From: Pseudomonadota bacterium
GTDB taxonomy: Bacteria; Bdellovibrionota_B; Oligoflexia; Silvanigrellales; Silvanigrellaceae
Direction of reading: 5' to 3'
DNA: 12,768 bases
NCBI GenBank assembly: GCA_027490595.1
Contig: JAIXXU010000085.1
Location: 1-12,768, forward strand
Positions within the stretch are counted from its first letter, which is position 1. Each line of letters opens with the position of its first letter. Below the pieces are notes generated by a model. The model had not been told where the DNA came from, searched no databases, and saw only the letters and a list, made by a program, of their open reading frames with translations. Below are positions 3,287 through 10,456 of this stretch, one piece after another. The translations under genes were made by a program, and so were the position numbers.

Positions 3287-3379
3287 AAGTTCGAAATTTT
3301 TCATGTTTACGCAAGAGATTCTATGGTTTTTAGTAAAAAAGTACTTGAAGTTTTGGTTATTTATAAGGAACAATGTTGA

Positions 3380-3754
3380 TCGTATTTCCTGCAAGACCTC
3401 GTTGACAAATATCGTGTGATAGCTCGTGATAAATTATCTGATTTTTGGCTGACATGGCCACTACAATGGCCGCTTAGTTTTCTTGTCACAGATTCCTACA
3501 GTCCAGAATCCTATATTCAAGAAATAAAAATTCCTAAGATATTTATTCACAGCAAACAAGATAAAGTTGTACCTTACTATTTGGGAGAAAAGCTTTATAA
3601 TTTGGCTTCGCAGCCCAAAGAACTCTGGGTAGTGCCCTGGGCTGGGCATGCCAACGCGTTATCAACCTCTCAACCTCAGTTTAGAATAAAATTTGTTCAG
3701 CGATTATGTGATTCTTTGGTGGATAAAAGCAGTATTTGTCCTTTAGACCCATAA
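3380..3754 (+). pseudogene. Alpha/beta hydrolase remnant, C-terminal part with internal deletion
   Basis: The open frame from just after a TGA at 3377-3379 to TAA at 3752-3754 encodes about 124 residues; the only available initiators are weak (GTG at 3416). The C-terminal half resembles serine hydrolases of the Bem46-like alpha/beta type. It has IPKIFIHSKQDKVVPYYLG with the likely catalytic Asp, and WVVPWAGHANAL with the likely catalytic His. The beginning, YFLQDLVDKYRVIARD, looks like the strand before the family's DYRG turn, and then jumps directly to DFWLTWPLQWPLSFLVTDSY, which normally lies after the nucleophile elbow. Roughly 100 residues, including the Gly-x-Ser-x-Gly nucleophile, and the whole N-terminus are therefore missing. 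A catalytic product is not expected. No ribosome-binding site supports the short frame. The hydrolase match is by eye. Confidence 0.65.
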
Positions 3755-3840: not shown

Positions 3841-6129
3841 TTACAAACTCATCTGGGTTGCTTTTTCTTTAAGCTCAAACTTACTAAGAGGGTAAGAAAA
3901 CCAATTTTCTGGTTTACTGTTTAAATCTAGTATTGCCTTGGTTTTAATAACATTCTCGGAATTAATTGTGAAAATGAAATGGCGCGGTTGTTCCATGAAT
4001 TCTCGACAAGTTTTACCTTTTTCTTTGAGATTATTCATGTGTGCTTTGTATTTATCTTTTAATTCAATAGAAATATTATCACTTTGAATTTTTTTGATAA
4101 TTCGTTCAATATCTTCTTTTTGATATTGAATATACTTATCAGTCAGTTCTTTAATGTGTTCATTTGGCTTTTGGATTTCATTTTTATCAATTTCCTCTTG
4201 TTTTTGTTTTAAAAAAAAAAAAAAAAACAAAATACCTGCGAAAGGAATTAGTCCAATGAATGCGCTAATAACATTCTCTGTAACAAGTCTAATGGTATTT
4301 GAGCTAGAAAATTGATCATAATTTTCAATAATCCAAGTGAACAAAAAGCCGAAGTTGTCTACAATGGCGTCTCCTACAATAAATGTAGGAAGAAAAGAAT
4401 AGTGAAGAGCTTTTGCTTTCCATGAGCGTCTGTTGCCCGCTAACACCAAGGAAAAAACCATAATATGTGACTGAATATATTTTTTTAGGCAATCATAGTT
4501 ATCTGAGGCATGTAAATTATTTTCTGAAGGTGTTTCAGGACTTAATTCTGGCATTTGGGTTTCGAGGTAGTTTTTGGAAATTTCTTCACTCAGTTGAAAA
4601 ATATCCAGTTGAATTTTTTCAAGTTCACCTTCATTTAGTTCATCAGAACAATTCGTGAGTTTGTGAGCTAAATTGAGTAGTTTGCCAGTAGGTAATTCTC
4701 GTTGATTTATTGCAACTGTTTTAAAGAACTCGCTAATGTGAGTTTTGTTGTGTGTTTCCTGGGATTGGCCTTCTGGCTTTGCTTTGATAGCTTCGATTTT
4801 TTTAAAAATAACGTTTTCTTTGAGGTTTTTGTTTTGTGAAATGAATTCTTTTGCATTGTCTATTTCTTCTTTTGTTATTTTATCTTTCAGGAAATAGTTT
4901 TCTTTAGAAATATTGATTGGTTTTTGGGTTACGCCCTTATTGTTGCTACGAATTTTGTTATAGCTTGGAACTTCGGTGGATTTTTCGTCTGCAACTCTTA
5001 TGGGATAAGTGCTTTTTTCTTCAGTGGTATTTTGTTGTGTGAAATTCAAGATATTATTTGATATCAAAGAGCGAATATGATTGTCAGAATCTTTGCGAAT
5101 ATTTTGGGTAGCGTGGCTAAAGGCAGCATCTACGCATTTGTCAAAGGCATAGTTTATGACAAAGCTAAATATACCTCCAATAATAATGAGCAAAGGGATG
5201 GCAGCAGCTGTGACAAGTACGCCAGATAACAAGGGAACCATATAAAAATCATTCAAGCAGGAGACCATATTATTCAGAATATAAGCCAGTGGAATAAATG
5301 CTCTTTTTACTGCAAAAAGAATTTTTTGACCTATAGATTTTTGTTTGTAGATCATCAATAGGGCTGATTGAGAAACTGCATTAGCAAATAATGATGTAAA
5401 TTGGTGATAACCCTCTTGCTCTTCTTGAATTCCTAAACTTTCAAAAATGAGGTTTAGAAAAATTTCGCAATTTTGGGAGAAGGCATTGATCGAGTTTCTA
5501 TAGATATCAATTCTGTCGTGTGAAATATTAATGAATTCTGCTCCGTGAATAATCATTTCGTTCAAAGTGAGCATGGCAGAATTTTTATTTTCTGAATCAT
5601 CAATAAGAGAAAGAAGTTTTTGAAAAAAATCGTTGGTGGTTTCTCGAATATTGTTTTTAGGATTGGAAGAAGATGAAAAAAGAGATTCACAGTAACTGCT
5701 GACAATTGATATCAGTGTTTGAATTTTTGGATTATTGTTATTTTGATCTAAAAATGTTTTGGCAAATTGTGCGTTGAGTTGAGTAGAGGGTGTTAATTGA
5801 AGATTCTTTTTTAAAATTGTAATGGCTTGATTTTCGTTGAGCTCTTTTTTCCCATTTTGGATACCATGATAAAATTTACCAATTAAGTTCCTGTTGGCGT
5901 TATTATAAAATTCTTTACGCCGTGTGGCGTTCAGTTTTTTGCAGAACCCTTCTTGTTTCGTAAAATCCTGGCTATCGATGCCGGTATGGTAAACTTTGTT
6001 TTCTGTTTCTAAGCATTGAAACCATGTTTGTGTTTCTTTTTCCTGTTTTATATCAAGCTGTCTTGGTGCTGGAGAAGTTGTGCCATGAAGAATAATATTT
6101 GAAGGTGTGGGTAAAGTAAGCGTATCCAT
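3841..6129 (-). CDS. Orphan 762-residue bi-lobed membrane protein under a Fur box
   Basis: I do not recognise this family. The ATG at 6129 is preceded by AAGG seven bases upstream. There is no signal peptide; residues 1-250 are polar, Asn/Ser/Lys-rich and mostly helical in character. The first hydrophobic region is about 275-327, with a very hydrophobic stretch at 297-327 (VPLLSGVLVTAAAIPLLIII). Residues 345-545 are charged and partly disordered, with Glu/Lys-rich helices. The second hydrophobic region is about 552-640, ending in GLIPFAGILFFFFFLK. A charged tail with probable coiled coil follows (645-762). The layout is soluble-hydrophobic-soluble-hydrophobic-soluble, and the two hydrophobic regions may be related. 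The FFFFF stretch is encoded by 17 consecutive T. A Fur-box palindrome lies at the promoter, so iron-repressed expression is likely. It is a single-gene unit beside a decayed hydrolase. An inner-membrane protein or a secreted effector that inserts in host membranes are both possible; neither is shown. Confidence 0.8.
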   Translation of the reverse strand: MDTLTLPTPSNIILHGTTSPAPRQLDIKQEKETQTWFQCLETENKVYHTGIDSQDFTKQEGFCKKLNATRRKEFYNNANRNLIGKFYHGIQNGKKELNENQAITILKKNLQLTPSTQLNAQFAKTFLDQNNNNPKIQTLISIVSSYCESLFSSSSNPKNNIRETTNDFFQKLLSLIDDSENKNSAMLTLNEMIIHGAEFINISHDRIDIYRNSINAFSQNCEIFLNLIFESLGIQEEQEGYHQFTSLFANAVSQSALLMIYKQKSIGQKILFAVKRAFIPLAYILNNMVSCLNDFYMVPLLSGVLVTAAAIPLLIIIGGIFSFVINYAFDKCVDAAFSHATQNIRKDSDNHIRSLISNNILNFTQQNTTEEKSTYPIRVADEKSTEVPSYNKIRSNNKGVTQKPINISKENYFLKDKITKEEIDNAKEFISQNKNLKENVIFKKIEAIKAKPEGQSQETHNKTHISEFFKTVAINQRELPTGKLLNLAHKLTNCSDELNEGELEKIQLDIFQLSEEISKNYLETQMPELSPETPSENNLHASDNYDCLKKYIQSHIMVFSLVLAGNRRSWKAKALHYSFLPTFIVGDAIVDNFGFLFTWIIENYDQFSSSNTIRLVTENVISAFIGLIPFAGILFFFFFLKQKQEEIDKNEIQKPNEHIKELTDKYIQYQKEDIERIIKKIQSDNISIELKDKYKAHMNNLKEKGKTCREFMEQPRHFIFTINSENVIKTKAILDLNSKPENWFSYPLSKFELKEKATQMSL
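4211..4227. repeat. 17-nt mononucleotide tract inside a coding region
   Basis: Seventeen consecutive A on the plus strand, hence T17 in the sense strand of the 762-residue gene. It encodes five Phe and the start of a Leu codon (residues 635-640). The reading frame is open with the length as given. A gain or loss of one base would end the protein near residue 640 and remove the last 120 residues. It is the longest homopolymer I saw in the window. Confidence 0.95.
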
Positions 6130-6157
6130 AGTTTTACCTTAAAAGAATAAAGTTGAA

Positions 6158-6176
6158 AATGAGAATCATTCTCATT
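6158..6176. promoter_or_regulatory. Fur box (ferric uptake regulator operator)
   Basis: AATGAGAATCATTCTCATT is a 9-1-9 inverted repeat, perfect apart from the central base. It matches the classical Fur operator (7-1-7 form TGATAATNATTATCA) with one symmetrical change per half (TGAGAAT). It ends 28 bases before the ATG of the orphan membrane-protein gene and lies just downstream of a candidate -35/-10 pair, so Fur bound with ferrous iron should block transcription. The gene on the other side also points toward this site and ends at 6212, so only the 3841-6129 gene can be the target. Confidence 0.85.
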
Positions 6177-6182
6177 GTGCTC

Positions 6183-6211
6183 TAAATACCTTTGCTAAGA
6201 ATTTGGGTCAA
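6183..6211 (-). promoter_or_regulatory. Candidate promoter of the orphan membrane-protein gene
   Basis: On the minus strand TTGACC (6211-6206, five of six to the -35 consensus) is followed after exactly 17 bases by TATTTA (6188-6183, a weak -10). The expected start of transcription falls near 6176, the first base of the Fur box, giving a leader of about 47 bases. The geometry fits Fur repression at the start site. The -10 box is only three of six, so the call rests partly on spacing. Confidence 0.4.
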
Positions 6212-6919
6212 CTACTTTTTTACCTTAATTTCTGACTGCAACGTAAGATAAACAAAGCCATTGGAAAAACGGCATTCTTCAATGCTGAGCTGTTTTAAAT
6301 AAGGTATTGAAGATTCTATGAGCTCTGGAGCGCCTACCCCCCCAATAAGAACTGGGCTGATTGTCAAATAGAGTTTATCAACCAAATTGTGCTGCCAGAA
6401 CAATCCATTGAGCTGACCTCCTCCAAAAAGAGCTGCCTTTTTTGCGCCCCTTTGAGAAAGATAAAGGTAAAGTCCATTTATGTTCCCTTCCAGGAAAGGG
6501 AATTCGTTTTCTTTGATTACTTTGCTTTCAACGGATAGTTGGGGTTTTGAGCTTAAATTGAAATCAGTGCATTTGAAGATTATTTTTGGAATATGATTTT
6601 GATCCCAAAAATGATTGTCAGGGTAAACCTGTCCGCTTTGTGTAAATATCACCCAAAAAGGGTCTGGGGGGAGATTTTTATTCTTGCGCATGTGAGCCAC
6701 GCTAAAGGCGCCTTTTTCTGAGCCCATAGAGCGGTTGCCAATAAAGACGGCATCGCTTTCGCTTACTATGCGTTCCATGAGGGCAAAATCTTCGTCGCAT
6801 GTGATTCCTTGTTCATGACGAGTTGGTGTGGACTCAGAGCGAGTGCGTCCAATTTTCCCGTTCAACGAACACAAATTGATATTGACAACCTCAATGGGGT
6901 TTTTTGGATAAATAGTCAT
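6212..6919 (-). CDS. Stand-alone RibD C-terminal (DHFR-like) reductase domain protein
   Basis: The 235-residue product resembles the reductase domain found at the C-terminus of RibD, which reduces the ribosyl group of the pyrimidine intermediate in riboflavin synthesis with NADPH. Visible family features are VVNINLCSLNGKIG near residues 11-24 (usually SLDGKIA; the Asp is Asn here), SESDAVFIGNRSM at 53-65 (usually ADAVLVGxxT), and ALFGGGQLNGLFWQHNLVDK at 163-182 followed by LYLTISPVLIGG, the cofactor-binding end of the fold. The deaminase half of RibD is absent. The ATG at 6919 lies one base after the map stop with no Shine-Dalgarno, so translation is probably coupled to map as the last gene of the fabD-map unit. 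Stand-alone members of this family act on varied pteridine or folate-like substrates, so the substrate is not assigned. Confidence 0.78.
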   Translation of the reverse strand: MTIYPKNPIEVVNINLCSLNGKIGRTRSESTPTRHEQGITCDEDFALMERIVSESDAVFIGNRSMGSEKGAFSVAHMRKNKNLPPDPFWVIFTQSGQVYPDNHFWDQNHIPKIIFKCTDFNLSSKPQLSVESKVIKENEFPFLEGNINGLYLYLSQRGAKKAALFGGGQLNGLFWQHNLVDKLYLTISPVLIGGVGAPELIESSIPYLKQLSIEECRFSNGFVYLTLQSEIKVKK

Positions 6920-8875: not shown

Positions 8876-10456
8876 ATGGTTTTTGATACAGTTTCTCAAG
8901 GTTTTAAAGACGCTCTGTTAAAAATAAAAGGCCAAACAAGACTGACAGAAGAGAATACAGCTGAAGCCTTCGACGCAATAAAAAAATCTTTGTTAAATGC
9001 TGATGTGGATTTAAACGTTGTAAAACAATTTTTAGAAAATGTTCGTAAAAAAACTATTGCTGACGTTGTCACTTTAAAGTCAAAATCTGGTCAAAAAGTA
9101 ACTGCTGACGATTATTTTATCAAAGCTTGTCATGATGAGTTAGTGGAGCTTCTTGGTGGTAATACCCCAGAGATTACAAAAAATACAAAGGGGCCAACGG
9201 TAATTTTACTCGTAGGTTTGCAAGGTGCTGGTAAAACAACTCATGCTGCCAAGCTTGCAAAACATTTGGCTCAAACTCAAAAAATGCGTCCATTGCTGGT
9301 AGCTGCAGATATCTATCGTCCTGCAGCCCGTGAACAGTTAAGGCTTCTGGGTCAAAAAATCGATGTGCCAGTGTTTACTTTAGAGTCACAAGATGCGGTA
9401 GAAATAGCTCGCAAAGGGTTAGAACATGCGCGTTCTGAATGGCTTGATTTAGTCATTATTGATACAGCAGGTCGCTTGGCAGTGGATGAAACGCTTATGA
9501 GCGAGCTTGAAAATATGAAGCACGCTGTTTCTCCGCAAAATATTCTTCTTGTGATTGATTCTATGATTGGTCAGGATGCCGTGCGCACAGCATCGGCCTT
9601 TGACAATCGTTTGGGTTTGTCTGGGGTTATTCTGACAAAATTAGATGGTGATGCTCGAGGTGGCGCAGCGCTTTCTGTGAAGAAGGTTACTGGTAAAAAT
9701 ATTTTATTTGTTGGAACGGGAGAAACTCTCGATAAACTGGAAGATTTTAGACCAGAAGGTATGGCCAGCCGCATATTGGGAATGGGCGATATCGTTGGTT
9801 TAATGACTGACTTTGAAAAGGTAGTTGACAAAGAAAAAGCGCAAAAAAGTACAGCTAGGTTTTTGGAAGGTCATTTCGACTTTAATGACTTCCTAGATAT
9901 GTTTGGTACCATTGGAAAAATGGGTCCAATAAAAGATATCTTGGCAAAAAGCCCTCTGGCAGGACAAATGCCTTCGGCGGAGCTTGATAAGGTGTCGGAT
10001 AAAGACTTCACAAGAAAGTCAGCTATTGTCCAATCTATGACTATCCAAGAACGAACACAACCTGAACTTCTCATTTCTAAATCTACTTCTGCCAGAAGTC
10101 GCATTGCTCGCATTGCAAAAGGTTCTTCCCATTCAGAAAAAGACGTTAAAGATTTGGTGGAACAGTTTTTTAAAATGAAATCTATGGTTCAAATGATGGG
10201 TGGTTTGGGCTTGGGTGGAGATTTTTCTTCTAAAATTCCTGGTCTTGGTCAATTAAAGCAAATGGCTAATATGGCAAAAATGGCTAAAATGATGGGTGGA
10301 GGCGGTTTGGGCGGCCTAGGAAATATGTTTGGTGGACTTGGTGATTCTGTCGGCGGGAATTCCCCTGGTGGTCTTTCGGCTTCAGATATGGCTGAGATCA
10401 ACAGACTCAAAAAAAAGAAAAAAGAAGAAAAGCAAAAGAAACAAAAAAAGCGATAA
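8876..10456 (+). CDS. ffh: Signal recognition particle protein Ffh (SRP54)
   Basis: GTPase that with 4.5S RNA binds signal sequences on ribosomes and delivers them to the receptor FtsY and the SecYEG channel. The product from ATG 8876 is 526 residues, longer than the common ~450. Order: N helical domain (1-105); G domain with GLQGAGKTT (114-122), DIYRPAAREQL (145-155), DTAGR (196-200) and TKLDGDARGG (254-263); then the M domain from about 320, with RIARIAKGSS and a Met-rich segment (FFKMKSMVQMMGG). The extra length is a Gly/Met-rich stretch (MANMAKMAKMMGGGGLGGLG) and a tail of about 20 mostly Lys residues at the very end. GTPase motifs all look intact. It is divergent from fabD and followed after 17 bases by miaB, with no terminator between. 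The 4.5S RNA gene is not seen here. Confidence 0.97.
   Translation: MVFDTVSQGFKDALLKIKGQTRLTEENTAEAFDAIKKSLLNADVDLNVVKQFLENVRKKTIADVVTLKSKSGQKVTADDYFIKACHDELVELLGGNTPEITKNTKGPTVILLVGLQGAGKTTHAAKLAKHLAQTQKMRPLLVAADIYRPAAREQLRLLGQKIDVPVFTLESQDAVEIARKGLEHARSEWLDLVIIDTAGRLAVDETLMSELENMKHAVSPQNILLVIDSMIGQDAVRTASAFDNRLGLSGVILTKLDGDARGGAALSVKKVTGKNILFVGTGETLDKLEDFRPEGMASRILGMGDIVGLMTDFEKVVDKEKAQKSTARFLEGHFDFNDFLDMFGTIGKMGPIKDILAKSPLAGQMPSAELDKVSDKDFTRKSAIVQSMTIQERTQPELLISKSTSARSRIARIAKGSSHSEKDVKDLVEQFFKMKSMVQMMGGLGLGGDFSSKIPGLGQLKQMANMAKMAKMMGGGGLGGLGNMFGGLGDSVGGNSPGGLSASDMAEINRLKKKKKEEKQKKQKKR

Follow-up and report, generated by a model that had tools for sequence, protein, structure and literature searches.

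This locus raises the question of what a perfect 19-bp palindrome is doing in the short space ahead of a large gene of no recognisable family, and whether it says anything about when that gene is used. The palindrome lies within the 82 bases (6130-6211) that separate the end of a gene for a RibD_C-domain protein from the ATG of ORF762, and stands 28 bases from that ATG. The window – here always the whole stretch of DNA that was analysed, 12,768 nucleotides in length – contains the following features of relevance:

3841-6129, minus strand: ORF762, an orphan of 762 aa with a GC content of 32.6%, characterized by open reading frame, profile and homologue searches
6158-6176, no strand assigned: putative Fur-type operator, the perfect 9-1-9 inverted repeat AATGAGAATCATTCTCATT, evaluated using shuffles, the published consensus and relatives
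6160-6174: 7-1-7 core of the operator, TGAGAATCATTCTCA
6183-6211, minus strand: weak, inferred candidate promoter TTGACC-17-TATTTA (8/12), from promoter scoring
6212-6919, minus strand: RibD_C-domain protein, the upstream neighbour of ORF762, from a domain match

The palindrome described in the earlier note is real and, as was claimed there, solitary. No other perfect 9-1-9 inverted repeat occurs in the window, and no match to the 19-mer was found in 200 dinucleotide shuffles of the window (0/200) with up to three mismatches allowed; another perfect 7-1-7 repeat, at 10085, is of unrelated sequence. Across the 1.50-Mb assembly it is the sole match at two or fewer mismatches, and allowing three mismatches adds three further places, a number equalled by a reversed-pattern control. 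Because the box is flanked by two genes on the same strand it can serve only ORF762, as had been proposed.

Its description as a classical Fur box is also borne out, both by a published consensus and by iron-uptake genes in relatives that have the same motif before them. Fur-regulated genes of Xanthomonas campestris share a 19-bp 9-1-9 Fur-box consensus, AATGAgAATcATTctCATT, as given in an excerpt of PMC1790865; all 19 letters of the site agree with it, and the boxes there likewise stand before start codons. According to the same excerpt (PMC1790865) those boxes are upstream of TonB-dependent receptors and fecI, whereas the operator here precedes an orphan gene in Bdellovibrionota. The Bacillus and Shewanella Fur consensus quoted in that excerpt (PMC1790865) has the same 9-1-9 frame and the 7-1-7 core TGA-AATnATT-TCA, but with T/A replacing G/C at the fourth position of the core and at the position mirroring it. 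The 19-mer contains one 7-1-7 core, the kind occupied by a single Fur dimer in the feoAB1 complex of M. gryphiswaldense, as presented in an excerpt of PMC11353095. The site has the form of a Fur-type inverted repeat at both the 19-bp (9-1-9) and 15-bp (7-1-7) scales, and the most likely reading is a Fur operator that keeps ORF762 repressed as long as iron is abundant. The box itself is genuine and of an ordinary, known kind, and the unfamiliar part is the gene behind it.

The alphaproteobacterial setting assumed in the earlier note did not hold up. The Map protein encoded in the window has its best match in Fluviispira multicolorata (Silvanigrellaceae, Bdellovibrionota), to which it is 84% identical; an alphaproteobacterial or Holosporales reading was therefore dropped, and what the note says about Irr and RirA has no bearing here. 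The relatives used for comparison, which appear to be Silvanigrellaceae, contain 31 near-copies of the 19-mer (at two or fewer mismatches) in nine of 13 genomes, and the reversed pattern is found at none of the places searched across 14 genomes at the same threshold. All 31 were inspected, and the motif stands before iron genes of the lineage, with 18 sites lying within 350 bases upstream of iron, heme or respiration genes. These include the siderophore genes IucA/IucC (two sites; L035 scanned, L039 by eye), the periplasmic binding protein Peripla_BP_2 (L060), FeoA (L033) and imelysin (L031) – the latter two scoring below the curated NCBI model cut-offs – and an MFS gene (L051) with a presumed link to iron. 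The others precede cbb3 oxidase genes (five; L040, L042, L049, L058, L061), multiheme cytochrome c genes matching under the model cut-off (five; L037, L038, L044, L046, L052), and CBS with an SdhC-like gene (two; L043, L056, with SdhC named by eye). In the cbb3 and cytochrome groups one member each was scanned, and the rest were assigned by eye from having the same N-terminal sequence. Of these 18 sites 17 are outside ORFs of at least 80 aa, L031 being the exception; the other 13 sites have no iron or respiration link, nine being inside ORFs and four outside.

The cytochrome and oxidase sites recur in five of seven congeners and are not found in the two smallest, one of which has no site at all and the other a single site inside an 80-aa ORF. 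With boxes of Fur type upstream of both the multiheme cytochrome c and the cbb3 oxidase genes of five Silvanigrellaceae genomes, respiration in the family may be under iron control.

A search for a fur gene, proposed in the earlier note as a check, was positive in 13 of 13 relatives but found no Fur-family gene in the source assembly (1,497,840 bases in 303 contigs, 72.5% complete), which is the chief argument against a Fur operator here. PF01475 is present in all 13 relatives, including all 12 with at least 90% completeness, and each of the seven congeners has two or three Fur-family genes. For the main type of Fur-family protein in the relatives the nearest solved structures are those of Fur (6d57, E 1.9e-27; one protein tested), and its nearest NCBI model is Fur, at 109 bits and under the cut-off of 146. 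In the three relatives listed, fur adjoins genes for an S41-type peptidase and a pyruvate-kinase-like protein (names assigned by eye). The pyruvate-kinase-like gene, directly downstream of fur in the relatives, is represented here by its last 66 aa only, at the start of contig C109, and because it is cut by the contig end fur may sit in a gap. A full-length homologue of the peptidase (38%) lies among other neighbours and lacks an adjacent fur, which also speaks against a Fur operator; a further, incomplete peptidase match is at the start of contig C267. Comparison of four relatives' Fur proteins with the three contig stretches gave nothing significant (best E 4.3). Thus fur falls in a gap of the assembly, has moved elsewhere or has been lost; we infer that the organism possesses it. 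The genus also has a second Fur-family protein (L089, 926-1366) whose best model is Leptospira PerRB (159.7 bits; cut-off 250), which fits an excerpt of PMC8638851 in which the nearest homologues of that Leptospira protein are placed in Silvanigrella aquatica.

In the assembled part of the genome ORF762 is the sole convincing Fur target seen, because the three other places with one mismatch to the 15-base core are all inside ORFs. At two or fewer mismatches the core occurs at 74 places in the assembly, and 48 distinct ones were located; four of these are outside ORFs of at least 80 aa, the site in the window being the only one with fewer than two mismatches.

The earlier note put the box at the expected transcription start. 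A promoter reading that fits this can be found, TTGACC-17-TATTTA, which would set the start on the first base of the box; however, it scores 8/12, in a tie of seven arrangements within that stretch, and no arrangement there reaches a threshold of 9/12. A transcription start at the box is plausible but weak as a prediction from sequence.

The map-ribD order is conserved in all eight relatives with a match to the RibD_C-domain protein, and in seven of these ribD is followed by an MFS-like gene (by eye), whose place is occupied here by ORF762; the gene after ribD in L075 is a different one. No box remnants were found around the end of ribD in these eight genomes, the best candidates having six to nine mismatches. 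A 112-aa ORF at 3416-3754 resembles alpha/beta-hydrolase models in their C-terminal part alone, at scores under the cut-off, and is probably a 5′-truncated gene remnant. A pair of inverted repeats around the ORF762 region (3333-3348 and 6208-6223) was set aside as probably coincidental, the sequence being A/T-rich.

The one homologue found for ORF762 is a full-length public copy that is 99% identical (four of 762 residues differ), and the existence of such a near-identical copy argues for a real and intact frame. Searching 5.8 billion proteins with the whole protein and with residues 440-762, and scoring the best 7992 candidates in the first search, gave no homologue beyond this copy among the candidates scored; a further 14 genomes from the order have none, and there is no match to PDB sequences or to NCBIfam. 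The view that it belongs to no recognisable family is therefore sustained, there being no match above a curated cut-off. The weak matches from Pfam, PHROGs and PADLOC were taken as chance, as most lie over hydrophobic stretches; ORF762 has two long stretches of this type (residues 295-331 and 615-642). DUF4112 (PF13430) matches 56 residues (584-639) weakly (E 5.3e-4), but at 20.6 bits this is below the curated cut-off of 23.3, and the remaining protein is unmatched; the match may be due to a hydrophobic stretch. The structure modelled from the single sequence was of unusably low quality (mean pLDDT 39, pTM 0.26). The GC content of ORF762, 32.6% compared with 36.8-42.8% in the window's other genes, suggests a late arrival. 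Its product is lineage-specific and probably membrane-associated.

A run of 17 A is present inside ORF762 at 4211-4227, and at this point (residues 636 and 639) the near-identical copy is not the same. L022 (one) and L030 (two) also have A runs of 16-17, giving four in 147,986 bases of the assembly (some of which overlap), and no A run longer than 11 was found in 329,254 bases of the relatives. The 17-A run is probably an assembly artefact, or else a slippage tract.

We consider it quite probable, from the sequence comparisons, that the palindrome is a Fur operator through which iron-loaded Fur represses ORF762. The operator would lie over the ORF762 transcription start, where an iron-loaded Fur dimer on the 7-1-7 core would block RNA polymerase; when iron falls Fur would come off the operator and ORF762 protein would be produced. 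Repression as the sign of regulation is likewise what we infer, and the most likely setting for ORF762 is a response to iron shortage. What supports this is the sequence of the site, which is found once in the assembly and is identical to the Fur consensus, and the motif before iron genes in fur-carrying relatives. The roles in host entry or virulence raised in the earlier note drew no support from these observations.

A different account, in which this reduced genome has lost fur and retains the palindrome as a relic – or gained it along with ORF762 – with no regulator, is unlikely, although several observations lean its way: the assembly has no Fur-family gene compared with two or three in congeners, no second convincing Fur site was seen (the three other core places with one mismatch lie inside ORFs), and no cbb3 oxidase match was found in the source assembly, in a search run without a positive control. 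Against a relic, all 19 of 19 positions are intact, and with 72.5% completeness and the fur-downstream gene cut at the start of C109 the regulator may be in a gap. The regulator could instead be another member of the family, PerR-like or Zur-like, given that the relatives have PerRB-like and further paralogues; we regard this as improbable. Siderophore, ferrous-iron and periplasmic-binding-protein genes follow the relatives' sites. Scored on the motif of the relatives, the site reaches 31.0, a PerR-type palindrome 8.2 and an Irr-type one 11.1, in a comparison that is partly circular because the relatives' sites were chosen by their likeness to the 19-mer. The E. coli 19-mer scores -19.2 on this motif in the same frame, from which it is offset by three bases according to an excerpt of PMC1790865.

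It is very improbable that the palindrome acts as a hairpin ending ribD transcription rather than as a protein-binding site. The 19-mer RNA can form an 8-pair stem (-5.5 kcal/mol alone and -7.3 in a 38-base context), but this has only two G-C pairs and no long T run and is absent from a listing of terminator-like structures, the fold of a 96-base context is no more stable than those of shuffled sequences (z -0.58), and the relatives' copies of the palindrome precede genes and sit between divergent genes.

Returning to a Fur operator ahead of ORF762, a more specific picture is of a shrunken Fur regulon in a reduced Silvanigrellaceae lineage, where one strong operator drives a recently acquired, lineage-specific membrane protein. 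We think this doubtful; if true, ORF762 would represent a novel type of iron-shortage protein, functioning in uptake or in action on a host. Our search of the open-licence literature found nothing on an Oligoflexia ferric uptake regulator or on Silvanigrellales siderophores, which does not prove absence from print. For an otherwise unreadable orphan of 762 aa the Fur box provides a testable condition, that of iron shortage. For the family, the comparisons indicate that the classical Fur motif is in use in Silvanigrellaceae, within Bdellovibrionota, ahead of genes for siderophores, ferrous iron and respiration.
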